A DNA stretch of 25,511 bases, taken from IMG/VR virus record IMGVR_UViG_3300033996_002819, positions 1 to 25,511 of that record. One strand, given 5' to 3'. Numbering within the stretch: the first letter of the stretch is position 1; each line of letters begins with the position of its first letter. The notes below the pieces were generated by a model, which saw nothing but the letters and a program-made list of their open reading frames with translations, ran no database searches and was not told the origin of the DNA. The DNA comes from a virus. This document shows, one piece after another, positions 12 through 25,250 of this stretch. The position numbers and the translations under genes were made by a program.

Positions 12-305
12 ATGAGTGTAGAAGGTTCTAAAACACATGTTTGCCGTGATTGTTATTTTAGCCCTAAGCACGACACTTTTGTTAAAGAATTTTTTGTAAA
101 AGAAGCGGTTTATACCGAGCAGTTTGATTTAGACTATAAAAAATATCTTGATGAAAAAGCTGAAGAAATGGCACAAAAATATGGAATATCTAAAGAAAAC
201 ATTATAGAAATCAATAATAAAATTAATGAATTAAAACAAGAATTTTCTTTGAATTATTTTAAAAAAATAATTCAAGAGCTAGTTGAGGATTCGGAGAAAA
301 AATAG
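12..305 (+). CDS. Small CxxC protein of unknown function, possibly the 3' end of a longer gene
   Basis: I do not recognise this 97-residue protein. Its N-terminal part carries one CxxC pair (Cys11 and Cys14, CRDC). The rest is a charged, helix-prone stretch rich in Lys and Glu (about residues 40-95) that could form a coiled coil. A single CxxC pair is half of a typical zinc site, so metal binding would need a partner or residues outside the window. The frame stays open to the left edge: the three codons before the ATG are sense codons reading Trp-Ile-Asn. The ATG at 12 has only a weak purine stretch upstream. The true start may therefore lie outside the window. The stop overlaps the GTG start of the aminotransferase by one base, which suggests translational coupling and a shared transcript. 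Confidence 0.6.
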   Translation: MSVEGSKTHVCRDCYFSPKHDTFVKEFFVKEAVYTEQFDLDYKKYLDEKAEEMAQKYGISKENIIEINNKINELKQEFSLNYFKKIIQELVEDSEKK

Positions 306-7384: not shown

Positions 7385-8164
7385 CTAATATTTAATGATA
7401 TAGTTAATTAAAGAGTTTTTAGGACGGGATTCAGTTCCGCCTGTAATATCCGTCAAAACTTGTTTGGCGGTAAGGTTACTTAATCCAGAATTTTTTACAC
7501 CAGCAACCGTCGCACCTTGACCGGCAACAGATACTTGATTTCCTATTCCGGCATCGGCATCATTTTGAACGTGAGTGTGAGATCCGAATTGATCACCCTG
7601 AATAGATCCTAACCCACCTGCACTATTCCCACCAACTGTAGCTGCTGTTCTTGAAGCATAATCAGGATCTTCGAACTGTACAATTACAGCACTATTGACT
7701 GATCCTGATGTTAATGCAATTCTTGTTCCAGCAAGTGCATTTGCTAATGTTGTGGCAAATGCTAATGTGTTTGAATTTACTACGATAGCGTAATAATCAG
7801 TAGAAATAGCAAGACCTCCTAACGTACCGCTTGATAGCCTTATTTTAAATCCTGTTCTATTAATTCCGTGATTAGAAAATGTAGCTTGGGTATTGTTCGG
7901 AGTTATAGGTACTGTTCCAGATCCGATAATTGTTGTTATGTTAACTCTTCCACGAAGAAAAGTCCCTCTATAGTCAGGTAAATTAAAAGTTGTTAATCCG
8001 TCACCTTGACCGTGAGAAGTCCCGAGAATATCAAATAAAGCGGAGTATGTCGTTCTACTTACGGTCTGTCCTTGACAAAGAAGATAACCTTCGGGAGCGG
8101 TCGAACCTGCGTAGGCTTTTACCTCTCCTGTTATCGATGATTTACTAACCAATGCTCTTGCCAT
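7385..8164 (-). CDS. Phage tail collar protein with inserted beta module
   Basis: Residues 1-71 repeat the collar signature of the 158-residue paralogue almost position for position (PEGYLLCQGQTVSRTTY, GTSHGQGDG, TFNLPDYRGTFLRG). The pattern resumes at about 166 with DPDYASRTAATVGGN, SIQGDQFGSHTH (187-198) and ends ESRPKNSLINYIIKY. Between them lies a foreign block of about 90 residues (73-165) containing STDYYAIVVNSNTLAFATTL and ANALAGTRIALTSG. I recognise this as the GTxYYVxxxxxxTFxLAxT...AGTxIxxT module found in many phage virion proteins. The insertion falls in a loop that is seven to ten residues long in the compact paralogue, so the collar fold should stay intact with an extra decoration domain. 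It starts nine bases after the 1692-residue gene, with an AGG ribosome-binding site. Confidence 0.88.
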   Translation of the reverse strand: MARALVSKSSITGEVKAYAGSTAPEGYLLCQGQTVSRTTYSALFDILGTSHGQGDGLTTFNLPDYRGTFLRGRVNITTIIGSGTVPITPNNTQATFSNHGINRTGFKIRLSSGTLGGLAISTDYYAIVVNSNTLAFATTLANALAGTRIALTSGSVNSAVIVQFEDPDYASRTAATVGGNSAGGLGSIQGDQFGSHTHVQNDADAGIGNQVSVAGQGATVAGVKNSGLSNLTAKQVLTDITGGTESRPKNSLINYIIKY

Positions 8165-11100: not shown

Positions 11101-13252
11101 GGAAACCTGTTGGTTCTTTTACAGCATCTTCAACTTCAATTGGTTTCCAATATCCTCCAACTTTTTTCCAAATAGTTTTTACATAATCTGTTCCTGCTTC
11201 GACTCTGATTAAATCGCCATCAACAGGCTGTTGTAATCCGCCGAAAGCATACATTTTTTCAAATGCAACAGCCGTACCAACTCCACTTACTTTGTACAAT
11301 CCTTCAATTGGGGAATTTACAAAGAAAACATAATCACCGTTTAAAAGGGTTTCGCTGTCAATTGTGACAGATGCCCCTGTAGGAAGAGAAGTAGAAATAA
11401 GATCAACAACCCTTACTCTTGGTATAACATCGTCTCTTTGTTCAAGACGCTTCAGACTTCTGGTTAAATTTTCACCATCCGTCAGGTGCATGTTAGTTCT
11501 GGCAACACCTAAGGCATTTGTGTAATCAGGACTAATATCACTTTCGCTAGGAGAGCCGATATATTGAAGAACAGCTTCGCTTGTATTATCAGAAATTTCT
11601 TGCCATTCACCTTGTTGTAATTCTTGACCGCCTAATACTCTTGCATAAACTTTAGCAACAGATCCTGTGTCATCTTGTCTATAAAATAGCCAAAAATAAT
11701 CCTCTCCGAAAGGAACTGATCCTCTATCTGCTATTTGAACATGCCTTTCAGAAGAAGGTGCTGAATTTGTTTCATAAACACCAAACGCATACTGAGCGTC
11801 AAAGCCAGCAGGTCCTGAAGACATTTCTAAAAATGGTGTCGCAAGAGTTACTTGAGATAAAGAATTGACAGATAAAATTTCATAATAAAATTCATCACCT
11901 CTTGAAGCATCTTTAATAAAATCGCCAGCCTGAAGATCAGATGTCCAATTTACAGATCCTACTGATGTAACAACAGTTCCGCCCTGAGTAAATACGAGGT
12001 TTGGGATAATGTTTACACCACGAACCAGCTCAAGATAAGCAACTTGGTTATTAGAAAGAACGATATCATCAGTGGCTTCGTTTTCAAGAATAGCATAACG
12101 CAATCTTCCACCGATGAAGCTAAGATATAGTTCATCACTCCAGTTAATTTGACCGGCTTTTGATGTTAAAGTAATATTTGCAGAAGGAACCTGTAAACCG
12201 TTTCCTGTGTGAAGATAAACTTGATTCTCAGGATTAGCTAAATTATAGTTAGAAATGATAGTATTAATATCGTTTATACTATTTGCAACCAGGGTAATAG
12301 GTTCTGAAGCACTTGCATTTACAGTTTTAATTATAACATTTGTCGTCATTCCAACTACAAGACCCTGGAAATCAAATGCACCATGAATTACATTCCCTTT
12401 TCCGGTAAACGCAGTATTGGCTATATCTTGGCGCAATCTTGAAATAGATCCGGCACTTTCTGAGTACCAAAAAGGAGTCCCCTTAAGGAGTTTGAACTCT
12501 GTCATTAAAGCGTCAAAAAAATCCTTCATTGTAGTGATTTGTTTATCACCGCCAAAAAAAGGATTAGACGTAGATGATGTTGATGTGTAAAAATTTTCTA
12601 CACGACCATCATTCCAAGGGTAGTTATGAAATGGGTTAGGATTTTGATCTCCAGCAGTTCCAAGTCTGTAAAGTAAAGGACGGCGATCTGTAATAGAAAT
12701 TACATTGTTTGATCCGTCTGTTTGTACAATCGCAATCGGTAGTACGTTACTAGCAAAAGACGAGGTTGTAATTACAATCTTATAATCTAAAGTAATCGCA
12801 AGTGGGACTGTTTTAGAAAATTCAACATTAGAGGTGGGATTCCAAAAATTAACTTGATCGGTTGTGGAGTCATTAACATCTCTTACGAATTCTAATCCGA
12901 TATAGTTATCAGTGTTTGGAGTAAAAGCTCCATCTATTCTATCATTTGTTGTAGAGCTTAAAACCTCCGACGGTGTACCTGCAGGGATAACATAAAAAGT
13001 ACCTGATTCATTGGACGATCCGTGTAAAATAGCCGAATTTTCTACTAACAATTGAAGACCGCTGGCAGAGGCTCCTACGGATCCTGGCATGTTAATTTCA
13101 AGCCCTCTAATTACATAGCTTTTATTTTCTCCAATAATTAGACCTTTGATTAATTCGTCAAAATCATTAGAAACAGCTGATTCTATAGATTTAAGATGCG
13201 GAACATCAATTCTCTGCTGACCCAAAAAATTTTGCCGTCTTCTTACGCTCAT
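8174..13252 (-). CDS. Giant virion structural protein, probable baseplate or long-fibre component
   Basis: The 1692-residue protein is beta-rich throughout. The N-terminus (about 1-290: RRRQNFLGQQRIDVPHLKSIESAVSNDFD, later a DRRPLLYRLG segment) looks like the attachment domain of large phage baseplate-periphery proteins. Around 440 there is an LQAGDFIKDASRGDEFYYEILS segment resembling the beta modules of the gpJ-like protein. Around 1040-1060 an HGLLSGLADPDHA segment matches the HxxLSGLxDDDHxxY junctions common in phage fibres. About 1360-1560 resembles a jelly-roll-like domain (TKFTVTDKSAVNQLVLNL...GGSYWIKIETD). The C-terminus ends with AGRGIYLRRPDGTLREICIDD, a cap motif seen at the ends of fibre proteins. 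I infer a long, trimeric baseplate-anchored protein carrying the collar and fibre proteins encoded after it. A TAAGGT site precedes the ATG, and the conserved 37-bp element lies 55 bp upstream. Confidence 0.78.
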   Translation of the reverse strand: MSVRRRQNFLGQQRIDVPHLKSIESAVSNDFDELIKGLIIGENKSYVIRGLEINMPGSVGASASGLQLLVENSAILHGSSNESGTFYVIPAGTPSEVLSSTTNDRIDGAFTPNTDNYIGLEFVRDVNDSTTDQVNFWNPTSNVEFSKTVPLAITLDYKIVITTSSFASNVLPIAIVQTDGSNNVISITDRRPLLYRLGTAGDQNPNPFHNYPWNDGRVENFYTSTSSTSNPFFGGDKQITTMKDFFDALMTEFKLLKGTPFWYSESAGSISRLRQDIANTAFTGKGNVIHGAFDFQGLVVGMTTNVIIKTVNASASEPITLVANSINDINTIISNYNLANPENQVYLHTGNGLQVPSANITLTSKAGQINWSDELYLSFIGGRLRYAILENEATDDIVLSNNQVAYLELVRGVNIIPNLVFTQGGTVVTSVGSVNWTSDLQAGDFIKDASRGDEFYYEILSVNSLSQVTLATPFLEMSSGPAGFDAQYAFGVYETNSAPSSERHVQIADRGSVPFGEDYFWLFYRQDDTGSVAKVYARVLGGQELQQGEWQEISDNTSEAVLQYIGSPSESDISPDYTNALGVARTNMHLTDGENLTRSLKRLEQRDDVIPRVRVVDLISTSLPTGASVTIDSETLLNGDYVFFVNSPIEGLYKVSGVGTAVAFEKMYAFGGLQQPVDGDLIRVEAGTDYVKTIWKKVGGYWKPIEVEDAVKEPTGFPNRTDSQISFDNGSRTFSISPLSPATHFDIFAKGRIFRFNSAQQITIPDTEGIYFFYFEIDGTLDYSTVFDISIITQKIYVSNIYWDAANNQAIILADERHGITLDGATHEYLHNLNGAVITGGGAINFTTGGTGNSNSDAQIAIGNIILRDEDIKISITNSASPVNPFEQILDPIAQIPVFYRNGAAGDWRKDVATQYPVKQGAVRIQYNNPAGPWTQVDIQEGYYVSMWVFATNNISEPVIAILGQKEHALLSDAQAEDSYDSLSFGTMPVQEFKVLYRIIFQSSSAFTNTPNANVVDVRDLRAAEDTQFAQVAPNDHGLLSGLADPDHAPTAVTTVGVTKDGGLSDSDTDLQQSLDTLNKLFGQLRLKEHPVDKKRVVVTGSDRILNNGQKLIQSLKNLVLSFEGAEIDFSTGNVYANDGVTVLGVNFTPATIGVTEYLNYSVTIIPSSVNVDNTITAQLIVLPAASSNIVKANAPKAAFAKGIQLGQVTVQENSGGIEDIDQADIMQLGTGGGSGSGTGDANSFTENLKHRLISSYYEFVTPVVFEIDEDNFEDSATASFDIANGVYSFTAAAQYFKSTQLFDTDFLTSDNDCLRVELHAEWFDSASRDDNAVYEASLDGTNFEAISMTRQNLSQKFTGDKLLSVPSSVSLFAQAVDTQTTELNATALRSIATKFTVTDKSAVNQLVLNLVKTGSPGGSYVISIVEDSSNSPTGGVIYSTIALCSGLSAGTNILTLSGFRNVLPAGGSYWIKIETDATYRSSFVASTTSIGVRSTTAGTDFVYNGTVWSAGTAKIRYQVSGHEYDLRIRVTSSASGKKLKAFGMFYDEHVGDVVTGSQALQKFTFSGDLNTTTFTVTAFLPDADNMKIYDIRTGQVYRYPAFSISGHDITFASGSFLAPGETIELIFDQSQGSGFDNSDTNANLLATNHLGSTDNTVDKSIAGRGIYLRRPDGTLREICIDDADNIVIYSV

Positions 13253-13306: not shown

Positions 13307-13343
13307 TACAATAATATCATATATTGTAAAGATTTAGTGCGAA
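13307..13343 (-). promoter_or_regulatory. Copy C of a shared 37-bp promoter/operator-like element
   Basis: This aligns without gaps to two other copies (about 28/37 and 23/37 identical by hand). Invariant blocks on the minus strand are AATCTTTA, ATAT and GATA. It also shares CACT-AATC context with the 22.5 kb copy. A dyad (ACAATA/TATTGT) overlaps it. It lies in the divergent spacer, 55 bp upstream of the 1692-residue gene. Confidence 0.6.
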
Positions 13344-13353
13344 GATTTTTTTC

Positions 13354-13393
13354 TTGATTTATTAAAAAATAAGTGATAATATGAACTTAGGAG
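13354..13393 (+). promoter_or_regulatory. Weak plus-strand promoter-like signal and ribosome-binding site
   Basis: TTGATT at 13354 and TAATAT at 13377 are 17 bases apart, which fits a sigma-70-type promoter for the two small plus-strand genes. AGGAG at 13389 is a strong ribosome-binding site for the ATG at 13401. The predicted start of transcription would fall on that site, leaving almost no leader, so the promoter call is doubtful while the ribosome-binding site is clear. ATAAGTGA at 13369 is an inverted copy of TCACTTAT at 13300. Confidence 0.35.
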
Positions 13394-13400
13394 AATAATT

Positions 13401-13652
13401 ATGAATAAACAAAAATTAGAAGAAGATATTAAAAAAAGAAGAATAAATCCTTATATTTCAAATAGTTATACAGATTTACCTAGTGTTAGCGTGAATGATA
13501 TGGCAAGTTTAAGCGATTTATTGATAGCAATATTTGATAAACAAAAAAACTCTTGTTGCCCAAGTCCAAAAAAATATAAGAACGGCATAGGCAAGATGGT
13601 GTTTTGGTCTTGTAAGAGCTGTGGCGCTGATTTAGGAGATATTAATGACTAA
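13401..13652 (+). CDS. Small zinc-ribbon-like protein
   Basis: The 83-residue protein has a basic, helical N-terminus (NKQKLEEDIKKRR), a middle helix (MASLSDLLIAIFDKQK) and a C-terminal CC...CxxCG motif (Cys52, Cys53, Cys71, Cys74 in NSCCPSP...WSCKSCGADLGD). Two cysteine pairs separated by about 17 residues with CKSCG at the second knuckle are typical of a small treble-clef or zinc-ribbon site. Such phage proteins often bind nucleic acid or host proteins, but no specific role can be assigned. The ATG has a strong AGGAG site. The gene starts a two-gene plus-strand island inside the minus-strand structural region, and its end overlaps the next gene by eight bases. Confidence 0.72.
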   Translation: MNKQKLEEDIKKRRINPYISNSYTDLPSVSVNDMASLSDLLIAIFDKQKNSCCPSPKKYKNGIGKMVFWSCKSCGADLGDIND

Positions 13653-13860
13653 AAAGGAATTAATTGAAATGCTTGAAAATTGTCCGGACGATGCCGACGT
13701 TTATATTGATATGCTGAACGATGAGGATTTTGATGGGGATAATAAATGGGTTTCTCATGTAAGAAAACCTTTTCCCATGATAAGATGGGTAAAAGATGGG
13801 AAAATTGCACAAAGACCGTGTGAAGAAACTACTGAGGCTAAAAAAAGTATTGTTCTTTAA
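13645..13860 (+). CDS. Small acidic phage protein (MTxKELIExL type)
   Basis: The 71-residue protein begins MTKKELIEMLENCPDDADVYID, a form very common among small phage and bacterial hypothetical proteins, where a helix KELIExLxxxPxDAxV leads into a beta hairpin (here VYIDML...WVSHVRK...MIRWVKDGK). No function is known to me. AGGAG in the end of the previous gene lies about eight bases before the ATG, and the genes overlap by eight bases. Its TAA is directly followed by the complement of the TAG of the tail-tube-like gene, so the two converge with zero spacing. Confidence 0.72.
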   Translation: MTKKELIEMLENCPDDADVYIDMLNDEDFDGDNKWVSHVRKPFPMIRWVKDGKIAQRPCEETTEAKKSIVL

Positions 13861-14283
13861 CTATCTGTCCAGCGGCTGTTGTCCCTGAAGTCCAATAAAA
13901 CTGAAACTAAGAGTCATATTTCCTTTAGCAGAAACATCAACTTTTTCATTTGTAACCTGAGCATTTGGGATCCACATTAATTGTTCGCCTGTTCTTCTGT
14001 CAGATATTCTAATTGATACATAAGGAGCGTACATAGAATCTGTAATCTTAGGTCTAATGCTTTGTCCTTGCAAGCCGTTTGAATTGGCTACCCTTATGCC
14101 AGAAACACTCCCTTGAATAGATACTCTTGTAATTTTTATTTCTTGAGGAAATACAGAGTCAATTCCGTAGATAGGTTCTTCGCCGTAATCTATAGTGTAA
14201 CTTAATTGTTGGACCTCGTTATAAGGTTTTCCATTTATATGCAAATTGATGTGTGCGCCTGATATAACTCTTTGAGTAGCCAT
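13861..14283 (-). CDS. Tail-tube-like or baseplate-associated structural protein
   Basis: The 140-residue protein is almost all beta strand. It opens GAHINLHINGKPYNEVQQLSYTIDYGEEPIYGIDS, continues with FPQEIKITRVSIQGSVSGIRV, and ends with MTLSFSFIGLQGQQPLDR. A GAxVxxxxNGxxxxxVxxxxYxxxYGExxxxGIDxxxPxEL...VxGxxxG layout is what I associate with small tail-tube-like or tube-initiator proteins that stack at the baseplate. I cannot separate tube, tube-initiator and sheath-terminator roles from sequence alone. GAGGAAG precedes the ATG, which overlaps the previous stop by one base. It is the last gene of the minus-strand baseplate run. Confidence 0.6.
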   Translation of the reverse strand: MATQRVISGAHINLHINGKPYNEVQQLSYTIDYGEEPIYGIDSVFPQEIKITRVSIQGSVSGIRVANSNGLQGQSIRPKITDSMYAPYVSIRISDRRTGEQLMWIPNAQVTNEKVDVSAKGNMTLSFSFIGLQGQQPLDR

Positions 14284-15899
14284 TATAAATCTTCCTCTGT
14301 GCCCCAGATGTAATATTTTTCTGAATTAACAGAATCTCCCCATTTACCCAATCCTACATCATTCGGATATAAAACATATATTACGACAACAATACCCGTT
14401 GCTGTAATTTCTTTAATAAGTTTTTCAGCATATATTCTTCCTGCTATAGAATCCGTCAAGAAAAATGGTAAATCCGTACCATCCTTGTTAGGGAAAGGAG
14501 GAGCAAGTTTAGAAACTAAAGCAATATCAGTACCAATTGGGTGTGTTTTTTTAAATTTATAAGAAGGATTAATTCTTATAGTCTGAGAAGAAGGTCTGGA
14601 AATATAAGGAACAGGACCTTCTTGATGCGATGTTCCAAGTCCTATCATTAGATATCCTGTATCATCAGGAAAATCAGAAGCATCATCAACAAATAATATT
14701 GCATCACTATTAACATTTAAAGATTCCGTAGTAAGTGCCGCTTTATCACTTATTGTATATCCTACGGTTATATCGTATGCATACGGGCCGTTTTGATTAG
14801 TCAAAGAAGGAGTATTGTCTCCATATATGTGAGCAGCACCTTTTCTATCTCTTCTTACAATTTTTGTAGTAGCTGGCATAAAAACTTCAATTGTTCTTGG
14901 AGAAGTTTGAAATGCCGCTGCATATCTTTCGTTTGTTGTTAAAATTCTTTTTTGAGCATTAAAAAATAAAATAGCATCAGCAGTGCCTTGCAAAGTGGTT
15001 TGAGGAATACCATTCGGATTTTCATATTCAATATAGGCCTCTCCTATATTTCCGCCCTGTGCTGCTACTATGTTAAAAGTACCTCTATTAACTAGATCAA
15101 ATGCAGAACCATAGATATTGACATAGTCACCTACTTTTACTCTTCCCAGAGCTGGATCTGCTCCTCCTGTCCATGTAGCTTTTATTGACCCTCCGGCCTC
15201 TTGTGCAAGAGTCCATTGGGTGGTGGAATCAGCCGAGGTTGGCCGTATTTTATCAAATTTTAATACATTTTGAGCCTTTCCTCCAAGAACTCTTACACTA
15301 GAAGAAGGGCCGTCTGTAGAAGATATGAGAACTACTTTATTATTGCCGTTTTCTTCTCTTAAAAAAGCTGCTCCAGTTCTTCCTGCTTTTCTGATAGATT
15401 TAGTAATAGCATCTGATACTTCTTGAGCAGAAGCTGCGTTAATGTTTTGAAATTGAGTTGAAGAAAAAGTCACCTCAACAGGTTCAGAATCATCAAATAG
15501 CAATATTAAATTATCTCCATTTTCTAAAGCATAAGGCTCAAACTCAAAAGATGGAGAAGTAGCTCTTGTGAATATTTCGCCATAAAGAATTCTTAGTAAT
15601 TGGTGAATTAAATCTCTTACCTGCTTTCTGGTCGTTATTTCGATACCAATCTCACGAAAAACCTCGTCCGACAAACCGACCTCAGGAGGTCTTACGACCC
15701 CTTTATCCCCTAGTCTTTGGTCGAGTAAATTTTCTTTTGCAGATACAATATAAAGAGAATCATTAACGGCTTCAACATTATTGATTAAATGAACAGGCCC
15801 TGTAGCCAGGGATTTGAGGATTGCGTCAGTATTTTTTCCTCTGATCGACTTGTTTAAATAGGACCTAAGTTTCTTGTACTCGTCTTCTTTCGTGGCCAT
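14283..15899 (-). CDS. Baseplate-type structural protein with one tail-module repeat
   Basis: The 538-residue protein has a helical N-terminal quarter (about 1-115: EDEYKKLRSYLNKSIRG, later GIEITTRKQVRDLIHQLLRI) and then beta-rich modules. About 125-215 is a segment of the GDNLILLFDDSEPVEVTF...ISSTDG type, resembling a domain repeated in the neighbouring 2200-residue protein. About 253-298 is a copy of the GDYVNIYGSAFDLVNRGTFNIV module that recurs many times in that neighbour. The C-terminus (TDSIAGRIYAEKLIKEITATGIVVVIYVL) is helical then beta. It is placed directly after gpJ with a two-base gap, so it is likely a wedge or wedge-adaptor protein. I cannot assign a named homologue. Confidence 0.7.
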   Translation of the reverse strand: MATKEDEYKKLRSYLNKSIRGKNTDAILKSLATGPVHLINNVEAVNDSLYIVSAKENLLDQRLGDKGVVRPPEVGLSDEVFREIGIEITTRKQVRDLIHQLLRILYGEIFTRATSPSFEFEPYALENGDNLILLFDDSEPVEVTFSSTQFQNINAASAQEVSDAITKSIRKAGRTGAAFLREENGNNKVVLISSTDGPSSSVRVLGGKAQNVLKFDKIRPTSADSTTQWTLAQEAGGSIKATWTGGADPALGRVKVGDYVNIYGSAFDLVNRGTFNIVAAQGGNIGEAYIEYENPNGIPQTTLQGTADAILFFNAQKRILTTNERYAAAFQTSPRTIEVFMPATTKIVRRDRKGAAHIYGDNTPSLTNQNGPYAYDITVGYTISDKAALTTESLNVNSDAILFVDDASDFPDDTGYLMIGLGTSHQEGPVPYISRPSSQTIRINPSYKFKKTHPIGTDIALVSKLAPPFPNKDGTDLPFFLTDSIAGRIYAEKLIKEITATGIVVVIYVLYPNDVGLGKWGDSVNSEKYYIWGTEEDL

Positions 15900-15901
15900 A
15901 T

Positions 15902-18900
15902 TTACTCAATTTTTGCAACAGTAATATCAGATATAATATCTAATATTAAAGATTTTTCACCAGCATTTACTCTGATTACATCGTTTTGCGTATCGTATTG
16001 TGGAGAACCTATTGCAACTGCTTGAACACCGATAATTGCTCCTACTGTGCTTATGACATTAGAAATAGGAATAGACTGGCCTACTGGATTTGAGTTAATC
16101 AACGCTGCTACCGAATTTCTTACCTCTTCAACAATTGTAGTAAACGGAATACCGGTTTTCACTCTTACACTAATTGATACTTCAATTCTTTTAACAAGTG
16201 GAGCTTTAATAAAAATTTCTGCACCAGCCGCAGCAACTCCCGGGTAAGTAGTGTTATCTCGTGGATCTCCGTACACAATTCTGTTAGCTTCTGCAACAAG
16301 TCCCGTGTTATATTTATAGGCATCAACGCCTTTATTAATTGCTGTATCAAATGCAAGTTTAGACATTGCCAACAAAGAAACACCGCCAATTTCTCCAATT
16401 TTTTCAAATTGATTTGCAGAATCAAACACAATGTTCTTATCGTTTAAATTAGCCGGGTTGGTAGAAACAAGCGATATTTTTTTATACCCAGCATATGGTT
16501 GAGCTTCTTCTAGGTATATTTTATTAAAATTAGAATCAAGCAAAGTTTTATCAACACTTACTGATGTTCCAGATACGATTATTTCTGTTTCACTCAAAAC
16601 TTCGGTAACAACAAAACTTTTTTTATTTGAAGCACCTAAAAAGCTGTTGGTAATTACAAAAGTATCTCCAGGAATTGCTCCCTCATATTCTTTGAATTTA
16701 AGAGCTTCTCTGTGAAATTGAAGAATATCTGAAATAATAATTCCTGCTTCGCTTACTCCATTTACGTTAATATAGTCTACAAAATTTCTTCTTCCTTCTT
16801 GTGTAATTTCTACCTCAAAATCTCCAGAAATATCGACATTAACCGCATCGGTAGCTGGACCATATGCTGTATTTGTTACTATGACCGTATTTCCATTAGC
16901 AATTGCCGAAAAGTCAACACCAGCAATTGTGTTAATTGAGTTTGCTGTTTTTATAGCCAAAGAAGCGGGTGTGTCAATATTTGCTGGTAAACCAGTGGCT
17001 ACTACAGCAACAGGTATTGCAGTTTTACCTGACAATCCCGGATCTCCTCCTGCCGAATCAACGTTATACCACAGATAATATTCTGTATTATCGTCAGCAC
17101 TGTTAATTAAAGCATATTCTCCAGAATTAATGGTAGTTCCTGATGACATTGTAAGTTTTGTAATTTGTTTTAATTTTTCTCCAGAATCAACAACATGAAA
17201 AGATCCTCTGTTAGAAATATTAAAATCTGTCCCAAAAGTAATCACATCACCCGGGCGCATGTTTTCAAGAGACGGCTCTTGGCCTGCTCCGCTCCAGCTT
17301 AGTTTGTTTATACCGTTTAATTTATCAATATTGTATTCTGTAGAAGCATCTGACCCAGTTGTTACGGCTTGAAGAACAAGTGTTACCTCTTCTTCAACTG
17401 TATTTGGATTGTCAATATAGATAGAATTTTTAAATCTCCTAACTATACGGTAGACTCCCTGATTTAATATATTAAAGTCACTTAATATGCTAACAGAATC
17501 TCCTTCTTGAACTTCTGATTGAACAGACAAATCACCTGAAGCATAAGCTGGAGCAATCATAAAAGCTCCGCTTGGAGTAGCTCCTAATCCAGAAAATGCC
17601 AGTGCCACTGTAACATTTGGAACATCGCTTACAATGTTTACAACAGATAAAGCAGAAGTAGCAGTTATGTTAGGTAAAAGAGAAATGGCTGCTGCAAGAT
17701 TAGAAGCGGTGTCATCTAGAGTAGGTCCGACAACAAAATCTATTCCCTCAGTCAATACCGTAGTTCCTACTGTAAAAATACCTCCAACTACTGTTGTATT
17801 ATCTGTAATAGTGAAACTACCTTGTATCAATTCGTTTATAGCATTTTCATTTGAAATACGAAGTGTTTTTGAATCATTACTACGGCCAATAACTAAGAAT
17901 TGTCCATTGTTTTCGGAATTAATTCTGTTAGAAATTGTTAACAAATCACCAATTGCGACTTCATCAAACCTCATATCTCCCGAATCAACGGTAATATCCA
18001 CAGCATTTGTAATGTCATTTTTATAGATTGTTAAAGTGCCTGAAACAGCGTCTTTTAAATTAATATTTGTTTTTAAAAAGAAAGGTTCTGTTCCTATATC
18101 ATCCCAAGAAATACAAGTAAACTGTCCTTGTTTTTCAACTTTAAACGTTTTACCTAGTGTACGAGTATGGTAACGGTTTCTTCCAAAAAACCTTTGCTGG
18201 ACATCTCTATCAAAAATCTCTATTTTAGAAGACCCTAGCGTAGGGGTTGATGAAGTGATTTTGATTGAATTAAGAGCATTGATCAGGGTTATCTTTCTCT
18301 GTTTATCAGAAGCAAAAACTTTAACCCATTGGTCCGAATGAAATCCGGCTGCCGATGCAGAATTAATAGAAACAATACAACTTCTATCAGATTGCTCTCC
18401 TATTACAGAACAGCTTCCTTCTACTGCGGCAGAAGATAAAGTACCTAAACCTCCTGCTATCTGAATAGATCCTGTCTCTCCTACTAAGGTTGTGGACAAT
18501 TGCAATCTAGAATTTCTATCAACGGTTTTTATATCTCCGAGTGTTGTAAAACCTGTAACTGCTAAGACATTTAAAAAATCAGAAACCTGATTTGCCGTAA
18601 TAGGAATAAGTCTTATTTTTTCGCCGTTATTAAAATTATAAGCATTAGATGTATTTGTAGAAAAAGAATCTAAAGATAATGAATTTTTAAAAGTAAACTG
18701 AGGAAGCCCCGCCCCGGCTGCTAGATTACTAGACAAAATATAGTTTTTACCATCAACCAGTCTAACAAAACTATCTGTATAATTCAAATCTTCTTCTGTG
18801 GAATCGTCTATTACACCAGCTCCTGTTAATCCTCCGTCGTCAACCAGAGAGGCTGTGACGAATAAAGACAGATCACTAGTTACGTAATCAACAATTTCTT

Positions 18901-21900
18901 GAGCGGTTGTGGCCGATGATTCAAAAAATGAAATAGTACTATTTTGTAATGTTGCTATATTTGACTCAACAACAGCAGCTCCCGCAGGTCTTTTTACTGT
19001 AAAACTTGATGAAGTAAATGAATCTATTTTAAAAGATCCAGTATTTTTGACATCAAATTCACCTGTATTAAAAATTGATACATAGTCTCCAACAATAATC
19101 GAAGATAAATCTGGAGCAGTACCCGTTCCTGAGTAAGTATATGTTACTGAATCTACAGACGCTGATAAAGGAATCGTTGTAATATTCCATTCAGTAGTCC
19201 CATCGACAGCGGTTGATCTTGAAGCGCCTGATTTTAAGAAAATTTTTATATTAACTTGTTCGTTAACTTCTGCAATATGAGTTATTCCTTGACCAGGAGA
19301 GGTAGGATAAAAATATCCAACTCCAATTTTTTCTCCGGATCTACCCCATTCTACAGATCTATAAAGAATAGCATCTTCATTTGTTGCAGGAACGGTAATT
19401 CCAGTAGGATTTCCAGGATCTATAATATTTTTTGCTTGCATTAAACATTTATAATTATCAAAATTAAAATCTGTATCAAAAAAATCGGTAAAATCTGAGT
19501 TCCCGCCTTCCAAATCGTATGCACGAAACTCGTCCGGGTTTACGGGAAGAGTAATATTTGTAACAGCAGTCCTGTACAACGGCATGTTAAAAGTTTTTTG
19601 ATTCGGATCATTATCTAGTATTGCTACTATAGAATCCTCGTGTCCAAAATCAAACCCATTCAAAATATGGTATCTGTCATCTATTCTGCTTCTTCTGTAG
19701 AAAACACTTTGTTCTAAATTAATTGATGAACCTGAAAAGTTTTGTATTTCTGTGCATTCTGTAGAAACCACATCATCAACGGAATTATATGGTTGAGAAA
19801 AACATAAAAAACCAGAAGGATCTGCTCCAAGCGTTGTCAAGTTTTCGCTGGAAGTTATGCTAGAAATAAAGCTGTCCGAAGGATCAGCAAAAACATCTGT
19901 TGTTATTTTTCCGTGTATAAATGCCGGAAATTGCCTGTCCTGATTCCCTGATTCATAAAAAGCAAGTTGAGAATTAATGCTTTGAGAAATAGAATGTTTT
20001 ATAAAATTAAGAGATTTTGCAGGATCATTAAAATCGACCAAAAACAATCCGCCATCTAGTGCTTCGGTATTTGTTCTGATAACAAAAATTTCATCATTAT
20101 CAATTTTTACCGTAGCATTTTTTAATTGATTATTCATGATATTTGCAATTGTGTTTATATTGTAAATACCGGTAGGAACTTTAATTTTTTGAGGAGTTTT
20201 TTCACATCTGACGACGGTAAATCCTTCAGTAAAAAGAATCGGACCTTCAGCAACAGCAGCAGACTCTTCTGTTGCTGTAACCTTAATATCAAGTGTAGTA
20301 GAAGTTACAGCGTGTACACGACCTTCTAATCTGTTTGCGGAAGATAATTCATCTGACCATATAATCACATAGTCACCAATTTCAACATCATCAAAAGCAC
20401 TAAGTACAGTACTAGTATATCTAATAATACCCGAACCCGGCTTAGACACATTCAAAAAGCTATCTCCGGTAACTCCAATAGAAACAGGTTCAGCGTTTAC
20501 GTCATCAACAAGAAGCCATACATATGCCGAACCGGAAACGGTTGTTTGACCGCCAAGAATTTTCTTGCTATTTATTTCGGCTCGAGTATATTCGGAGCCT
20601 AGTTTTAAAGAATCACCTTTAGCAAGAGGTGATTTTAATTTAATTTGAGCAGTATTCCTTGATAATTCAAAATCAGCCTCATTGCCTTGAGCAGAAAGAC
20701 CGATAGATGCTGAAAACATACCCTTTGCAACAAGTGCTGAAGCAGGGTCTATAGAAATACCGGCTCTGTTTGCTGATCCTAGATTACTCGTTAATTTTAG
20801 TTGTTCTCCGTTTACTTCAGCTGTAATACCTGTTACTTTATTGTTAATAACATTAGCCCAAGACGACAAGGTGTTTTGGTTGGTGACAGTAGAGTGTTGT
20901 CCCTCGTCTAAGAAATCTTGATTTGTAAAAGTGTAAGTTATCGGATCTGTACCATCCACTGATATAATTAAAGTGTCACCAGCGGTTATAGAATTGTTCC
21001 AGTCGAACTGTTTTTTAGACACTACAAATGCAACTCTTCCATTTTTGTCTAACAATTCTCTGTTTTTATAGAGTAGAATACTTCTAATTTCGTTTTTCGG
21101 AAATCCTAAAATAGGTCCAGCATCCACTCCTGTGGTCGGTGTAGATAATTGTAAAAATTCATCATTTTCTGTTTTTGCTTTAATTAAAACTTTAGCTCCG
21201 CTATCTGCTGTTGTTGCTTCAAATTTTAAGTCAGTATTATTGTTAATACTAGCAACTATTTCGTATGCAGTGGCAGATCCTATTGCTTTAAAATCATTTT
21301 CTCCAAAGATATGCTCCGATATTAATCCTCCTACAAGAATAGCCAGCTTGTCATAGGCTTTTATATTGTATGGAGAAGTTTCTGAAGAAAGTAAAAAAGC
21401 CTTGGCAACAGAAGTTTGTCTTCCTCCGGTAGAAAGCTGAAAACTTCTTTCCCCACCAATTGCTGAGTCTATGATAAATTCAATCCCTACCCCTTCAGTT
21501 TTTTCTTCATATCCTTGACCATTGTCAATGTAAAGAATAGTTTCTTCGGGATTTGTAGTATCAATCTCATTTGAGGTTACAACAGCATTTTCATCTGTAG
21601 CTTGAGCACCAAGGACGGCGTTTTTAACAGCTAAAGCAGTTCCTAGTCCTCTTGATAATCTTTCTTTTTTAATTCTATCTCTATAATCATCATCAGATTC
21701 GGTATCGGCACCAGTTGTAAAAGGTCGTTCATTAATAACTTCTGCACCTGTAAATGGGACAGATCCGAATTGCCTTATGGCTCCTGCAGGAGCATTTGAC
21801 GCAGATCCCGGTTCCTGAGCCACAACTTGTACAAAAGGATTTTCGTTTTCACCATCAAGAAGAATGGCGGCAGAAGATACCGTATAACTGATGTCTGCTA

Positions 21901-22504
21901 TAGCTCCAGATCCCGGCGAAGAAACTGTCGTTCCAACAGAAACATTTCGAGTTCCGCCTTGTCCAAGAATCACTGTTTCAGAAATATTATGAAATTTTGT
22001 CGTAGGAGAAGCTAGTGTAATTTCCCAGTATGCTCCTATTTGAGAAGCTGCTATATAATTTAATGGTCCCTCAATATTTGGAGTTCCTCTTCCTATATAT
22101 AAAGTTCCTGATGTCGGGAACTGAGAAGCGTCAGACACTTTTATAACGGTTGAGCCAATATTTGGAGATGAGGCTCCTGCATAAACTTTTGTAGATATTT
22201 TCTGAAACGAAGAATCAATTACCTTAACAACTCCATTTGCGGTTCTTGAAGTTTTTCTAAAAATTCTTTCTTCTTCGCCAATTCTGTTTAGAGCCTCTCC
22301 AGTAGCTCTGTCGACAGAATAATCTCTAAGTACTTGAAATATATCACCTGAGGTACGTGCTACAGATCTTGCTACAACATCAAAAAACTGAGTTAAAACC
22401 GATCCTGTATTAAGGTCGTTAACACCAGTCAGCCCCGTATACTCCGTGAGCATTTCCGACAATATTTGTTCCCTAGATTTGGGGGTAGGTAAACCTTCAG
22501 CCAT
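15902..22504 (-). CDS. Giant baseplate J/gp47-like protein with long repeat-rich insertion
   Basis: The 2200-residue protein begins like the gpJ family of wedge proteins: SREQILSEMLTEYTGLTGVNDLNTGSVLTQ at 10-40, helices, then NAPAGAI (about 235-241) and the hallmark PFTTGADTESDDDYRDRI near 258-275. It also ends like gpJ, with EIFIKAPLVKRIEVSISVRV...VRNSVAALINSNPVGQSIPISNVISTV (about 2085-2165). P2 gpJ is about 300 residues and T4 gp6 about 660, so roughly 1,700 extra residues lie between the two halves. The insertion holds recurrent beta modules of the form GDxVxI...F...NxGxFxV, near 708, 1135, 1516, 1668, 1751 and 1946, plus SGKTAIPVAVVATGLP...VIVTNTAYGPATDAV (about 1810-1900) and related tail modules. 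Its role is a baseplate wedge component that joins hub to periphery. AGAGGA precedes the ATG, and the 37-bp element lies 15 bp upstream. Confidence 0.88.
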   Translation of the reverse strand: MAEGLPTPKSREQILSEMLTEYTGLTGVNDLNTGSVLTQFFDVVARSVARTSGDIFQVLRDYSVDRATGEALNRIGEEERIFRKTSRTANGVVKVIDSSFQKISTKVYAGASSPNIGSTVIKVSDASQFPTSGTLYIGRGTPNIEGPLNYIAASQIGAYWEITLASPTTKFHNISETVILGQGGTRNVSVGTTVSSPGSGAIADISYTVSSAAILLDGENENPFVQVVAQEPGSASNAPAGAIRQFGSVPFTGAEVINERPFTTGADTESDDDYRDRIKKERLSRGLGTALAVKNAVLGAQATDENAVVTSNEIDTTNPEETILYIDNGQGYEEKTEGVGIEFIIDSAIGGERSFQLSTGGRQTSVAKAFLLSSETSPYNIKAYDKLAILVGGLISEHIFGENDFKAIGSATAYEIVASINNNTDLKFEATTADSGAKVLIKAKTENDEFLQLSTPTTGVDAGPILGFPKNEIRSILLYKNRELLDKNGRVAFVVSKKQFDWNNSITAGDTLIISVDGTDPITYTFTNQDFLDEGQHSTVTNQNTLSSWANVINNKVTGITAEVNGEQLKLTSNLGSANRAGISIDPASALVAKGMFSASIGLSAQGNEADFELSRNTAQIKLKSPLAKGDSLKLGSEYTRAEINSKKILGGQTTVSGSAYVWLLVDDVNAEPVSIGVTGDSFLNVSKPGSGIIRYTSTVLSAFDDVEIGDYVIIWSDELSSANRLEGRVHAVTSTTLDIKVTATEESAAVAEGPILFTEGFTVVRCEKTPQKIKVPTGIYNINTIANIMNNQLKNATVKIDNDEIFVIRTNTEALDGGLFLVDFNDPAKSLNFIKHSISQSINSQLAFYESGNQDRQFPAFIHGKITTDVFADPSDSFISSITSSENLTTLGADPSGFLCFSQPYNSVDDVVSTECTEIQNFSGSSINLEQSVFYRRSRIDDRYHILNGFDFGHEDSIVAILDNDPNQKTFNMPLYRTAVTNITLPVNPDEFRAYDLEGGNSDFTDFFDTDFNFDNYKCLMQAKNIIDPGNPTGITVPATNEDAILYRSVEWGRSGEKIGVGYFYPTSPGQGITHIAEVNEQVNIKIFLKSGASRSTAVDGTTEWNITTIPLSASVDSVTYTYSGTGTAPDLSSIIVGDYVSIFNTGEFDVKNTGSFKIDSFTSSSFTVKRPAGAAVVESNIATLQNSTISFFESSATTAQEIVDYVTSDLSLFVTASLVDDGGLTGAGVIDDSTEEDLNYTDSFVRLVDGKNYILSSNLAAGAGLPQFTFKNSLSLDSFSTNTSNAYNFNNGEKIRLIPITANQVSDFLNVLAVTGFTTLGDIKTVDRNSRLQLSTTLVGETGSIQIAGGLGTLSSAAVEGSCSVIGEQSDRSCIVSINSASAAGFHSDQWVKVFASDKQRKITLINALNSIKITSSTPTLGSSKIEIFDRDVQQRFFGRNRYHTRTLGKTFKVEKQGQFTCISWDDIGTEPFFLKTNINLKDAVSGTLTIYKNDITNAVDITVDSGDMRFDEVAIGDLLTISNRINSENNGQFLVIGRSNDSKTLRISNENAINELIQGSFTITDNTTVVGGIFTVGTTVLTEGIDFVVGPTLDDTASNLAAAISLLPNITATSALSVVNIVSDVPNVTVALAFSGLGATPSGAFMIAPAYASGDLSVQSEVQEGDSVSILSDFNILNQGVYRIVRRFKNSIYIDNPNTVEEEVTLVLQAVTTGSDASTEYNIDKLNGINKLSWSGAGQEPSLENMRPGDVITFGTDFNISNRGSFHVVDSGEKLKQITKLTMSSGTTINSGEYALINSADDNTEYYLWYNVDSAGGDPGLSGKTAIPVAVVATGLPANIDTPASLAIKTANSINTIAGVDFSAIANGNTVIVTNTAYGPATDAVNVDISGDFEVEITQEGRRNFVDYINVNGVSEAGIIISDILQFHREALKFKEYEGAIPGDTFVITNSFLGASNKKSFVVTEVLSETEIIVSGTSVSVDKTLLDSNFNKIYLEEAQPYAGYKKISLVSTNPANLNDKNIVFDSANQFEKIGEIGGVSLLAMSKLAFDTAINKGVDAYKYNTGLVAEANRIVYGDPRDNTTYPGVAAAGAEIFIKAPLVKRIEVSISVRVKTGIPFTTIVEEVRNSVAALINSNPVGQSIPISNVISTVGAIIGVQAVAIGSPQYDTQNDVIRVNAGEKSLILDIISDITVAKIE

Positions 22505-22518
22505 TTAGTCCTCTTTAA

Positions 22519-22555
22519 CTATATATTATCACATATAATAAAGATTCAGTGCGAA
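22519..22555 (-). promoter_or_regulatory. Copy A of a shared 37-bp promoter/operator-like element
   Basis: By hand alignment this copy matches copy B at 26/37 and copy C at 28/37 positions. Minus-strand core: CTGAATCTTTATTATAT, then GATAATATATAG. A TATTAT/ATAATA dyad overlaps it. It ends 15 bp before the gpJ-like ATG, with the AGAGGA ribosome-binding site between, so transcription is most simply toward that gene. Confidence 0.62.
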
Positions 22556-22556
22556 T

Positions 22557-22587
22557 ATAAAAAATAATTTAATTAAATATTTTTTAT
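22557..22587. repeat. 31-bp AT-only palindrome
   Basis: Ten-base perfect arms (ATAAAAAATA and TATTTTTTAT) flank an inner perfect palindrome TTTAATTAAA with one unpaired A. It lies between the end of the 858-residue gene and copy A of the conserved element. A stem made only of A-T pairs is a poor intrinsic terminator, but it is well placed to end or attenuate the 858-residue gene's transcript or to act as a protein-binding site. Confidence 0.6.
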
Positions 22588-22599
22588 AAATTATTGAAA

Positions 22600-25176
22600 T
22601 TACACAGAAAAATTAATAGGGAATACACCCTTGCCGTCAGCTAAGATTGCATTTATACTAATAGATACTGTTGGAGGTAAAATATTTAACTCTATATTCT
22701 CAATATCAGAAAACCTTGGATCTTGCAAGACCATATCTCTTAAATCGATTAGCACATTTTCAATATCTACTTCAGAAACACTAACTCCCGGCGTAAGCCC
22801 TAGCCCAAAATCGGGATTTGAAAGTAAAGAACCCTTCTGTGTCATTATTTTCATTTTTAAAGCCTGAACAAGGTTTGTAGTACCGTTTGCTAATGCCATT
22901 TCACCAAATGAGTTCACAACAACATCTCCATAATCATCAATTAACCAATCTACTTTAGAAAAACCTGTCAGCGTATCCTCTTTTAAAAAAGGAATATCGT
23001 ACGTACGAGCCTCTTCGTTAATAGCTATACTAGAGGGAATATAAATCTGGTTTTGACTATTCACAGTTCCGGGAAGAAATGCTTTAATTTTTGCATTATC
23101 TGTTGTTGTTAAAGAATTTAAATCATTTAAACCATCTACTGTGATTAAAAAATTTGTATCTGAAATTTTTTCTATTCCAGTAATTTTTCTTGTAAACATT
23201 GGAACAGTGTTACTAAATAGTTGTATTTTTTGTCCTGTAAATAAATTTTCTTTTGAAGAAATATTAAACTGTCTGCCATCTCCATTTGATAATAAAGTAT
23301 ATGAAAAACCATTTTCATCAATATATGGAGATCTTAGTCCATTTAAAGTTATGATTTCGTTATACCTATCAGGATCATTGAGATATCTGGCAGAAATTTG
23401 TTCAATAGTTAGCCCATACGGGACCGGTGCTAAAAATTTAGCTGTTGAAGAAGAATCAAATGGAATTCCGGAGTCATCGGCCAATCCTCCAACATATTCT
23501 AAAGGATTTTGTTTTCTAGAATCGTCCAAATCCCGGGTCGCTGTAGATATATTTAATTCAAGAATAGCGTTTTCCAGTGCAACAATTAGCTCAAACTCCT
23601 CCAAAGTCATGGGGGTGGCTCTTTGTTTAGGGGCAGGTTTTCCAAATATTTCTGAAAAAAATGCGTCTCCCGCACCGAAGTTGTTTGTTATATCTAGTGC
23701 CAAATTTTGTAGGTTTTTAGTTATTTCTTTAATTTCTTCAATAGAAATTAGTAAATTTTTTTCTATTTCATCCTGGATTGCAATGCTCTGTTGGGGTGTA
23801 GTAGAAAGTTGATCTATGGAGATAGCATTAAAAAAATCAAAGCTTCCCTCAGGTTCATTAAATACATTGTTCAAACTAGAAGCCTCATTGGCATCTTTTG
23901 CTCCTTTACCAAGAAGTCCTGCTGCTACTTGTTCGTCAGAAACTCCTTCATTTATTTCTTTGTTTTGTTTAATAGATGCTACGGTTTTTTTTATTTTGTT
24001 GCCTGATGCTTTATTTTTATTTGAATTTACGCCAAATGCTGCTTTAAAAGACGCATCACCATTAGCTGTATCCGATGCCATATTTTTAATAGATGCCTTT
24101 AAATCTTGTCCAATTTGATTTGGAAGATCTGATACAGAAAGAACTAATCCTCCTAAATTTTTATAAAGAAGCGTAACTTTTCTTACTTGATCAAAAACTT
24201 GTCTAAAGTCTGCTCTTACTGCTTTAATAACATTTAAAGAAGCGCTCATAGCACTTCTAGCATTATCCAAAGTAGAGACTGCCTTTTGAAAATAATTAGA
24301 ATCAAGTTTTTGAGGAGTTTTGCCTGCATCTGTAGTAGTGCTATTTAAATCAATTCTTTTCCATGCCTTAAATTGCATGGTATATAAAAATTCGCCGGGG
24401 CTTCTTTGACTTCTTGTAACACTATACTGTATCGGAGTTACTACAAAAGATTCATTTGTTTTAGGGCAATCAAAAACAAGTCGCCAATGCTTGTTGTTGG
24501 GATTTTTTTTAGCAATAGCATATTGTTCAAGGAATTGTTGTAACAATAAAGCTTGATAATACCCTGTTCTGTAAGGATCATCCTGAGAAGGGTCTGGAGA
24601 ATTAGGTGCTGTTTTATTAAGTATGTTTTTCCAAGAGTCGACCGCTGTTCCTGCTGCTGAGAAAGATCCACCAAAAAGTGACAAGCCGGGTGTGTTTTTA
24701 TCATCGCCCGAACCACGGGTAGGCCATATTCCGGTCGTTCCGGATGCTGATATCATTTTAAATTTAACACCGTTATGTTCTTCGACAACACCACGCATTG
24801 TGGCAGTGGTATTAATTGCAAATTGATCTGTTATTGATAATTGTTGAGGAGTAATTGGAAGTGTAAAAACCCAGCCCTTGGGTCTTCCAATTGCATATTG
24901 TACGCCACCAGTGTTTGAACTATTATGGATTTTCTCTACTTTTGAGTCCAGTGTCCCAGCATTTCGGCTAAGAATAATTTTATTATTTCTAGAATCTATA
25001 ACAATTAATCGATAAGGAAACAGACCGCTTGCTCTGTTTTCCATAATGTCTAAAGGAGAAAAAAATGCATCTTTTTCATACCGCCAAGGAAGTGGCGTTA
25101 TATCGGAAAGGGTTTTTTCAGTTTTTTTAGAAACAACCCTTCCGGTTATTGTTTCATATATTTTATTCCATGACAT
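22600..25176 (-). CDS. Composite baseplate protein: hub-like domain, LysM-like domain, gp25-like wedge domain
   Basis: The 858-residue protein combines three recognisable parts. The N-terminal part (about 1-280) contains KGWVFTLPITPQQLSI...FAINTTATMRGVVEEHNG (99-140), a pattern found in large phage baseplate/hub proteins. The middle (about 290-560) is helical, charged and possibly coiled coil. Around 582-660 there is a LysM-like segment, PYGLTIEQISARYL...YNEIITLNGL...LFTGQKIQLF, where LysM domains bind peptidoglycan or serve as joints in tails. The C-terminal 100 residues (about 758-858: LKMKIMTQKGSLLSNPDFGLGL...LRDMVLQDPRF) resemble the gpW/gp25 wedge family. In P2 and T4 that wedge protein is a separate small gene next to gpJ/gp6; here it precedes gpJ as part of a fusion. 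GAGG precedes the ATG, and copy B of the 37-bp element lies about 13 bp upstream. Confidence 0.85.
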   Translation of the reverse strand: MSWNKIYETITGRVVSKKTEKTLSDITPLPWRYEKDAFFSPLDIMENRASGLFPYRLIVIDSRNNKIILSRNAGTLDSKVEKIHNSSNTGGVQYAIGRPKGWVFTLPITPQQLSITDQFAINTTATMRGVVEEHNGVKFKMISASGTTGIWPTRGSGDDKNTPGLSLFGGSFSAAGTAVDSWKNILNKTAPNSPDPSQDDPYRTGYYQALLLQQFLEQYAIAKKNPNNKHWRLVFDCPKTNESFVVTPIQYSVTRSQRSPGEFLYTMQFKAWKRIDLNSTTTDAGKTPQKLDSNYFQKAVSTLDNARSAMSASLNVIKAVRADFRQVFDQVRKVTLLYKNLGGLVLSVSDLPNQIGQDLKASIKNMASDTANGDASFKAAFGVNSNKNKASGNKIKKTVASIKQNKEINEGVSDEQVAAGLLGKGAKDANEASSLNNVFNEPEGSFDFFNAISIDQLSTTPQQSIAIQDEIEKNLLISIEEIKEITKNLQNLALDITNNFGAGDAFFSEIFGKPAPKQRATPMTLEEFELIVALENAILELNISTATRDLDDSRKQNPLEYVGGLADDSGIPFDSSSTAKFLAPVPYGLTIEQISARYLNDPDRYNEIITLNGLRSPYIDENGFSYTLLSNGDGRQFNISSKENLFTGQKIQLFSNTVPMFTRKITGIEKISDTNFLITVDGLNDLNSLTTTDNAKIKAFLPGTVNSQNQIYIPSSIAINEEARTYDIPFLKEDTLTGFSKVDWLIDDYGDVVVNSFGEMALANGTTNLVQALKMKIMTQKGSLLSNPDFGLGLTPGVSVSEVDIENVLIDLRDMVLQDPRFSDIENIELNILPPTVSISINAILADGKGVFPINFSV

Positions 25177-25188
25177 TTTGTTGCCTCA

Positions 25189-25225
25189 TTATACAATATC
25201 GTATATAATAAAGATTCAATCGTGT
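25189..25225 (-). promoter_or_regulatory. Copy B of a shared 37-bp promoter/operator-like element
   Basis: This copy keeps the core TTGAATCTTTATTATATACG on the minus strand, followed by GATATTGTATAA; its outer end diverges from the CGCACT seen in copies A and C. It lies 13 bp before the 858-residue ATG and in a divergent spacer. On the plus strand it is followed by GTGATATTATATAA at 25224-25237, a possible -10-type signal for the small gene at 25251. Confidence 0.6.
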
Positions 25226-25250
25226 GATATTATATAAAAAGAATTACAAT

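Follow-up and report, generated by a model that had tools for sequence, protein, structure and literature searches.

What transcribes the tail genes is the question raised by the 25,511-nt viral contig analysed here (the window), in which a 37-bp sequence recurs on the minus strand ahead of three tail and baseplate genes (Table 1). The preliminary description reported three ungapped, partly identical copies, and realignment recovers the same three identity figures, 28/37 (copies 1 and 2), 26/37 (2 and 3) and 23/37 (1 and 3), with 20 invariant columns that include AATCTTTA, ATAT and GATA. All copies are intergenic, at measured distances of 54, 14 and 12 bp 5' of minus-strand ATGs (13-55 bp had been given), and the window holds no further copy. 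Copies 1 and 2 also share flanks that extend past the core.

Leave-one-out matrices, built from any two copies and applied to the third, score it at 25.1, 31.9 and 18.9 bits, against 9.5, 11.3 and 8.7 bits for the best other site on either strand. The full three-copy matrix gives the copies 41-46 bits and everything else in the window at most 7.2, with a maximum of 14.9 bits in 40 first-order random windows. The 37 bp is a real repeat, but it consists of two separable boxes, E1 and E2, each of which also occurs alone elsewhere, rather than of a single element. The dyads described at the copies are likewise present, but part of them is due to a second, GATA-type promoter on the opposite strand. 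Such promoters lie directly against copy 3 (+25225) and near copy 1 (+13374), each before a divergent gene; the former accounts for most of the copy 3 dyad and has orthologous sites in two relatives.

Table 1. Composite elements, predicted promoter boxes and associated genes in the window
Feature	Position	Strand	Remarks
Composite element, copy 1	13307..13343	-	Includes upstream block TTCGCACT
E1 late core, copy 1, AATCTTTA	13327..13334	-	Hexamer AATCTT at putative -12..-7; predicted start ~13322
E2 extended -10, copy 1, TGATATTAT	13311..13319	-	Hexamer TATTAT 13316-13311; predicted start ~13304
Divergent E2, TGATAATAT	13374..13382	+	For small gene starting 13401
1692-aa tail-region protein	8174..13252	-	Putatively driven by copy 1; orthologue of Mx1 139197-141188
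Composite element, copy 2	22519..22555	-	Includes upstream block TTCGCACT
E1 late core, copy 2, AATCTTTA	22539..22546	-	Predicted start ~22534
E2 extended -10, copy 2, TGATAATAT	22523..22531	-	Hexamer 22528-22523; predicted start ~22516
2200-aa baseplate J / gp6-like wedge protein	15902..22504	-	Putatively driven by copy 2
Composite element, copy 3	25189..25225	-	Divergent E2 in place of upstream block
E1 late core, copy 3, AATCTTTA	25209..25216	-	Predicted start ~25204
E2-like box, copy 3, CGATATTGT	25193..25201	-	Weaker match; hexamer 25198-25193; predicted start ~25186
Divergent E2, TGATATTAT	25225..25233	+	For small gene starting 25251
858-aa baseplate protein, gp25-like C-terminus	22600..25176	-	Putatively driven by copy 3

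E1 marks late genes

E1 has the consensus (C/T)AATCTTTA and is found throughout the genomes of about a dozen relatives, Myxococcus phage Mx1 among them. Unsupervised 7-mer counts 5' of starts in the relatives place TGATATA (40 observed, 2.6 expected), ATCTTTA (57, 5.6), AATCTTT (59, 6.4) and CAATCTT (34, 3.1) all among the top seven. Near starts and outside same-strand genes, E1 outnumbers its reverse complement by 14 to 3, 17 to 4, 8 to 2, 22 to 7 and 9 to 3 in five genomes. When Mx1 is taken alone, motifs other than E1 (GGATCT, CTAGTAT) lead the blind 7-mer enrichment, and E1 in this phage therefore rests on orthologue alignment.

E1 is found in 78/253 late upstream regions against 6/152 for replication genes (Fisher P 3.5e-12; this and related P-values are overstated, since the related genomes are not independent), whereas its reverse complement gives 13/253 and 14/152. 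Among orthologues of the window's genes, it precedes the gp25-like gene in 15/15 genomes, BppJ in 12/15 and the gene for the 1692-aa protein in 11/15; it precedes the sigma gene in 0/12. The matrix scan proposed in the preliminary description, run here on the relatives, places matches 5' of late genes and at a fixed distance from starts. Literature searches found no description of AATCTTTA as a phage promoter, nor of Mx1 transcription.

The spacing of E1 from start codons points to its role. An ATG lies exactly 12 nt from AATCTT in 14 cases, compared with 0-2 at 13-20 nt, in counts made without a coding filter; some of the cases so counted are coincidences in coding sequence, and one (Mx1 36551) overlaps a ribosome-binding site. 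The coding-filtered counts are the trustworthy ones, and in held-out genomes they give 10 against 0 for the reverse complement. A blind ranking in these genomes does not put AATCTT first at 12 nt, because ribosome-binding-site hexamers dominate. In leadered genes, A reaches 53% at +12, against 32-34% at the neighbouring positions 11 and 13, and T falls to 16%; a search for -35 conservation above E1 in these genes found nothing conserved. Together, the ATG excess and the enriched A place AATCTT at -12 to -7, and transcription from E1 would start 12 nt past the first base of the hexamer.

E2 and the composite promoters

E2 (consensus T(A/G)TGATATTAT) belongs to the host-type extended -10 boxes: TGn abuts a TATAAT-like hexamer, and the start would fall ~12 nt after the hexamer start. 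Its hexamer-to-ATG distance also peaks at 12, as for E1, in filtered counts and in held-out genomes too. The earlier view that the element has no sigma-70 match is half right: the GATA half is an extended -10 (TG-A-TATTAT), and some E2 sites in relatives carry TTGAC at the proper 17-bp spacing. Additionally, E2 lies 5' of GroEL, RNR and the phage sigma gene (6/12 for the latter). It occurs in 45/253 late and 32/152 replication upstream regions, which is no difference, and is thus not a class-specific signal. At copy 2, the predicted E2 start lies just 5' of the AAAGAGGA ribosome-binding site, an arrangement also seen at GroEL.

Of 22 distinct composites in the window's clade, 18 have the E1 and E2 hexamers exactly 18 bp apart, with 15 nt from the E1 start to TGATA; comparison with shuffles gives 8 observed against 0.2. 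In short composites, E2 stands 22-25 nt from the ATG, as in E2-only genes. The base before AATCTT is T or C at E1-only sites and mostly G or A in composites, and a conserved TTCGCACT block just 5' of E1 is present in composites only. Given these two differences, E1 in composites could serve another role. An operator function is not needed for the explanation, and the TTCGCACT block may leave room for one.

The other role could be activation of the kind known from T4 middle promoters, with E2 as the sole core promoter of the composites and the TTCGCACT-AATCTTTA block, about -38 to -22 relative to the E2 start, as the place where an activator binds. The fixed 18-bp spacing, the confinement of the extra TTCGCACT block to composites and the usual short distance of E2 from the ATG all suit such a model, as does some resemblance of the block to the T4 MotA box. 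T4 middle promoters join a MotA box at -30 to a sigma70 -10, and the composite likewise has a box ~30 bp above the E2 start, then an extended -10. However, the T4 MotA spacing differs from that of the composite, and E1 commonly stands without E2 as a -10 element at -12 to -7, the starts lying exactly 12 nt further downstream. A MotA C-terminal-domain search at E 0.1 matched 0/11 relatives, with a weak control. An activator site is an unlikely explanation.

A phage sigma factor lacking region 4.2

All of the long relatives examined have a gene for a sigma70-like protein, which in Mx1 is WNM70309.1, and the family is found on 54 contigs; the 25.5-kb window contig carries no sigma gene, and the gene is known only from relatives. 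The protein matches SigA/RpoD PDB profiles at E about 1e-6 and its best NCBIfam model at E 4e-11. It has region 2 homology, aligns with regions 1.2-4.1 and stops before 4.2, the -35 reader. Its fold matches sigma70, and the alignment of its model with sigma70 goes no further than residue 566. In the 41 members whose C-termini were inspected, the protein ends at LKLKGxKL or shortly beyond it; LKLKG is matched to RpoD ~569, and members stop there or within some 15 residues after. A split sigma or a frameshift into region 4.2 was rejected, as the three frames past the stop in six genomes contain no region 4 and the next gene is unrelated. A Sigma70_r4 scan yielded small HTH matches, all of them below threshold. 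A sigma without region 4.2 fits the absence of a -35 box at E1 and is the most likely reader of this box.

The reading favoured here, at a probability of about 0.7, is that each copy contains overlapping same-direction promoters, a host-sigma E2 and a phage-sigma late E1. E1 would be a single-box late promoter in which AATCTT replaces TATAAT at -12..-7 and no -35 box is needed, read by the host's RNA polymerase in complex with the sigma70-like factor of the phage. E2, at its 18-bp distance downstream, would be readable by the host main sigma. The phage sigma would be made from E2-type or read-through transcription and would then open E1 promoters, and tail genes with both boxes could be expressed on either side of this switch. 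A single polymerase footprint covers both E1 and E2, so that a polymerase at either box should keep the other from being used. The boxes, their spacing, the late-gene specificity, the start geometry and the presence and architecture of the sigma are read directly from sequence; from them we infer that the sigma reads E1, that E2 is active in composites, and the order in time. The earlier suggestion of a promoter for a phage sigma gains support from E1 being enriched genome-wide, gene-oriented, late-specific, fixed relative to the predicted start and co-occurrent with a sigma70-family gene.

Alternatively, the reader of E1 might come from the host, either as an alternative sigma or as sigma70 that a phage protein has modified, and the link between the phage sigma and E1 is indeed one of co-occurrence and architecture. 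Against this, the same box persists in relatives spanning GC 33% to 56%, which presumably use different hosts and all of which encode the phage sigma, and the missing -35 suits a sigma without region 4.2. A host factor of this kind is quite improbable. Phage RNA polymerases, which the preliminary description had offered as an alternative, typically use single-box promoters that are late and phage-specific; the idea finds no backing in the relatives, where T7-type RNA polymerase is found in 0/11 (T7 itself was detected as a positive control) and a multisubunit beta-like subunit in 0/11 (controls 14/14), making such a polymerase very improbable. Chance similarity or functionless, recently copied repeats, which the AT-rich region and the shared flanks of copies 1 and 2 might suggest, can practically be dismissed, and chance is ruled out for E1, given scores far above random and a core kept 5' of orthologues whose proteins are 29-45% identical, including those of a genome with 55% GC.

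Comparison with known phage systems

The available text of the phiEco32 report (PMC8948821) describes gp36 as an ECF-type sigma of 214 aa without region 4, and its middle/late promoters as a single box, tAATGTAtA, with the start 6-8 bp downstream and no -35. The single box, the missing -35 and the region-4-less phage sigma are shared with E1, and tAATGTAtA and tAATCTTTA agree in 7/9 letters; the consensus sequences AATGTATA and AATCTTTA differ at two core positions. That available text mentions no pairing of the box with an extended -10, the arrangement seen in the window's element (PMC8948821). Homology between the phage sigma and gp36 was rejected (hhalign probability 0.1%).

T4 late promoters, read by the highly diverged sigma70-family factor gp55 at late genes, also have a -10-like box only and no -35 (PMC2988020, PMC7892883), as does E1. 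Their consensus TATAAATA is not matched by (C/T)AATCTTTA. Structurally, gp55 consists of region 2, a helix-loop-helix and a clamp-binding tail, whereas the phage sigma here aligns with regions 1.2-4.1; no gp55 chain is among its listed PDB profile matches at E<=10. Genes of AR9 that have an early as well as a late promoter are expressed throughout infection (PMC5312081), which resembles the composites in placing two classes of phage promoter before one gene. AR9 uses its own multisubunit polymerases, whereas the present proposal involves the host polymerase and two sigmas. The window's element probably works like the gp55 or gp36 promoters and appears to be a member of neither group.

Significance

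This phage family is little-known and abundant in metagenomes, with one isolate in the phage collection searched, Mx1, whose host Myxococcus xanthus is a model bacterium. It is possible, and proposed tentatively, that the 18-bp pair forms a hard-wired relay, in which host sigma70 acts first at E2 and the phage sigma lacking region 4.2 later at E1, with mutually exclusive occupancy and a defined hand-over, and that the same sigma drives a class of leaderless late mRNAs across this uncharacterised family, including Mx1. For this family of large phages with contractile tails, the analysis provides a consensus and a predicted start point for late transcription, together with a candidate for its regulator. 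Alongside T4 gp55 and phiEco32 gp36, it would make a third and apparently independent example of loss of the -35 reader going with single-box late promoters. Late genes in unannotated phage contigs may thereby become predictable from E1.

The 37-bp element and its conserved core

The preliminary description placed three copies of a 37-bp element ahead of the largest structural genes of the window, and all three lie where it put them. Their alignment needs no gaps: pairs share 28, 26 and 23 of 37 bases, 20 columns are invariant, and every copy is intergenic and sits upstream of a minus-strand ATG. A matrix built from any two copies recovers the third at 18.9-31.9 bits, against at most 11.3 at any other place, and a full matrix scan of the window found no further copies. 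This 25.5-kb IMG/VR virus contig carries a contractile-tail baseplate region encoding an 858-aa gp25-like protein, a 2200-aa baseplate-J/gp6-like protein and a 1692-aa tail-region protein, then tail-collar fibres, three of them near-tandem paralogues. On the other strand from the tail genes, this region also carries a gene resembling class I/II aminotransferases (Pfam E 1.6e-13).

Searching with the 858-aa protein retrieved 21 related loci, some on 128-176 kb contigs. The one isolate retrieved is Myxococcus phage Mx1, which has a 169.6-kb genome and matches 89% of the protein at 29% identity. Gene content corresponds well among the window, the long contigs and Mx1; gene starts were called here for the relatives and taken as deposited for Mx1. 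Of the element ahead of the 858-aa gene, nearly all relatives keep the AATCTT core (E1), even where protein identity is as low as about 37%, but not the remainder, and the same holds at Mx1 late genes.

Two putative promoter boxes

A count of every 7-mer lying 8-75 nt ahead of a start, compared with whole genomes and with no motif supplied, ranked two word families highest over all genomes: ATCTTTA/AATCTTT/CAATCTT, which is E1, and TGATATA/TGTGATA/TATGATA (E2), with TTGAC-containing words lower. E2 reads as a putative extended -10 box, TG-A-TATTAT, and at about a dozen places TTGAC lies 19-21 nt upstream, corresponding to a spacer of 17 ± 1 bp. Outside same-strand genes, E1 follows gene orientation in five genomes (14 v 3, 17 v 4, 8 v 2, 22 v 7 and 9 v 3 against its reverse complement).

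In an orthologue comparison spanning up to 15 genomes, E1 lies ahead of 78/253 late and 6/152 replication genes (Fisher P 3.5e-12, indicative only because the genomes are related), while its reverse complement precedes 13 and 14. It stands before orthologues of the 858-, 2200- and 1692-aa genes in 15/15, 12/15 and 11/15 cases and before the prohead protease in 9/10.

Predicted start points and possible leaderless mRNAs

Distances from AATCTT to the next start codon spike at exactly 12 nt (14 cases), with 0-2 at each of 13-20 and many from 21; with a coding filter, counts at 13-19 nt fall to zero in the first genome set. Six held-out genomes repeat the spike (10 against 0 for the reverse complement), and the E2 hexamer also peaks at 12 nt. 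Most simply, transcription of some mRNAs would begin at the A of ATG and leave them leaderless, with both hexamers then at -12 to -7. Late genes with ATG exactly at the expected start, including prohead protease and baseplate genes, suggest leaderless mRNAs there too (table). Leadered genes have A as the twelfth base after E1 in 53% of cases, against 32-34% at positions 11 and 13; A or G reaches 79% and T drops to 16%. No conserved -35 block was found in leadered genes with E1. The two bases that sigma70 flips out, A at -11 and T at -7, are retained in AATCTT.

Composite sites

In the window's clade, E1 occurs alone at 30 sites and with E2 at 22 distinct sites, mainly at the three tail genes plus a few others. 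TGATA begins exactly 15 nt after the AATCTT start in 18/22 composites, placing the hexamers 18 bp apart; across three genomes this spacing was observed 8 times against 0.2 in shuffles. Short composites have E2 22-25 nt and E1 40-43 nt from the ATG, so both could be used, with the expected E2 start immediately ahead of the ribosome-binding site, an arrangement also present at GroEL; the boxes would overlap too closely for simultaneous use. An activator-site role for E1 in composites is less likely but possible, because composites also share TTCGCACT just upstream of E1. This block may be an extra recognition element or operator. The dyad noted earlier at copy 3 is largely due to an E2 on the opposite strand, serving a divergent small gene. 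Regions ahead of Mx1 genes are strongly enriched in the words GGATCTGC and CTAGTATG, which may form a further, Mx1-specific regulatory repeat.

Coordinates of the elements and genes discussed
Feature	Location	Strand	Comment
37-bp copies 1, 2, 3	window 13307-13343, 22519-22555, 25189-25225	-	
TTCGCACT block	window 13336-13343, 22548-22555, and relatives		directly upstream of E1; kept only in composites, absent from E1-only sites
Tail-collar fibre paralogues	window 4866-5417, 6690-7166, 7385-8164	-	
Aminotransferase-like gene	window 305-1288	+	
Late genes with ATG at expected start	relatives G002 124295, 126602 and G004 50265; Mx1 75277, 121393		
Sigma gene	Mx1 (L029 2071-3078) and orthologues		usually between helicase and calcineurin-like phosphoesterase genes, close to terminase
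Small region 4-like proteins	relatives G001:C1:74840-74917, G002:C1:65532-65624	-	

A putative phage sigma factor ending before region 4.2

Like the promoters and start points, the proposed sigma is read from sequence; its gene is absent from the window and known from relatives. All six long genomes in the first comparison, among them Mx1, encode an orthologue of the Mx1 'putative RNA polymerase sigma factor', and a scan found the family on 54 contigs. Its gene is preceded by E2 in 6/12 cases and by E1 in 0/12. NCBIfam sigma models match most members, and profile searches match SigA/RpoD region 2, then regions 3.2-4.1, ending near RpoD residue 569. For a member from one of the window's close relatives, an AlphaFold2 model (mean pLDDT 84) aligns along sigma70 chains up to residue 566 (VIA Z 12.9; Foldseek E 2e-3, probability 1.0). 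All 41 C-termini inspected fall at LKLKG or no more than some 15 residues beyond it, the point at which the -35-reading region 4.2 would start; no region 4 was found in other frames behind the gene in six genomes. LKLKG(V/I)K(I/L) at the C-terminus hardly varies and might serve as a contact surface. Two small proteins, with weak helix-turn-helix matches to sigma region 4 (E 0.001-0.007), could be partners of the truncated sigma.

No description of an E1/E2 promoter was met with in literature searches, and the Mx1 announcement does not discuss promoters. T4 gp55 provides a precedent for a sigma without 4.2 at -35-less late promoters (PMC2988020, PMC7892883), and the single-box promoter tAATGTAtA of phiEco32 gp36 is explained likewise by a sigma without a -35 reader (PMC8948821); the present family has no detectable relationship to gp36. 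A late promoter lacking a -35 box would call for a sigma of this kind, with region 2 but without 4.2.
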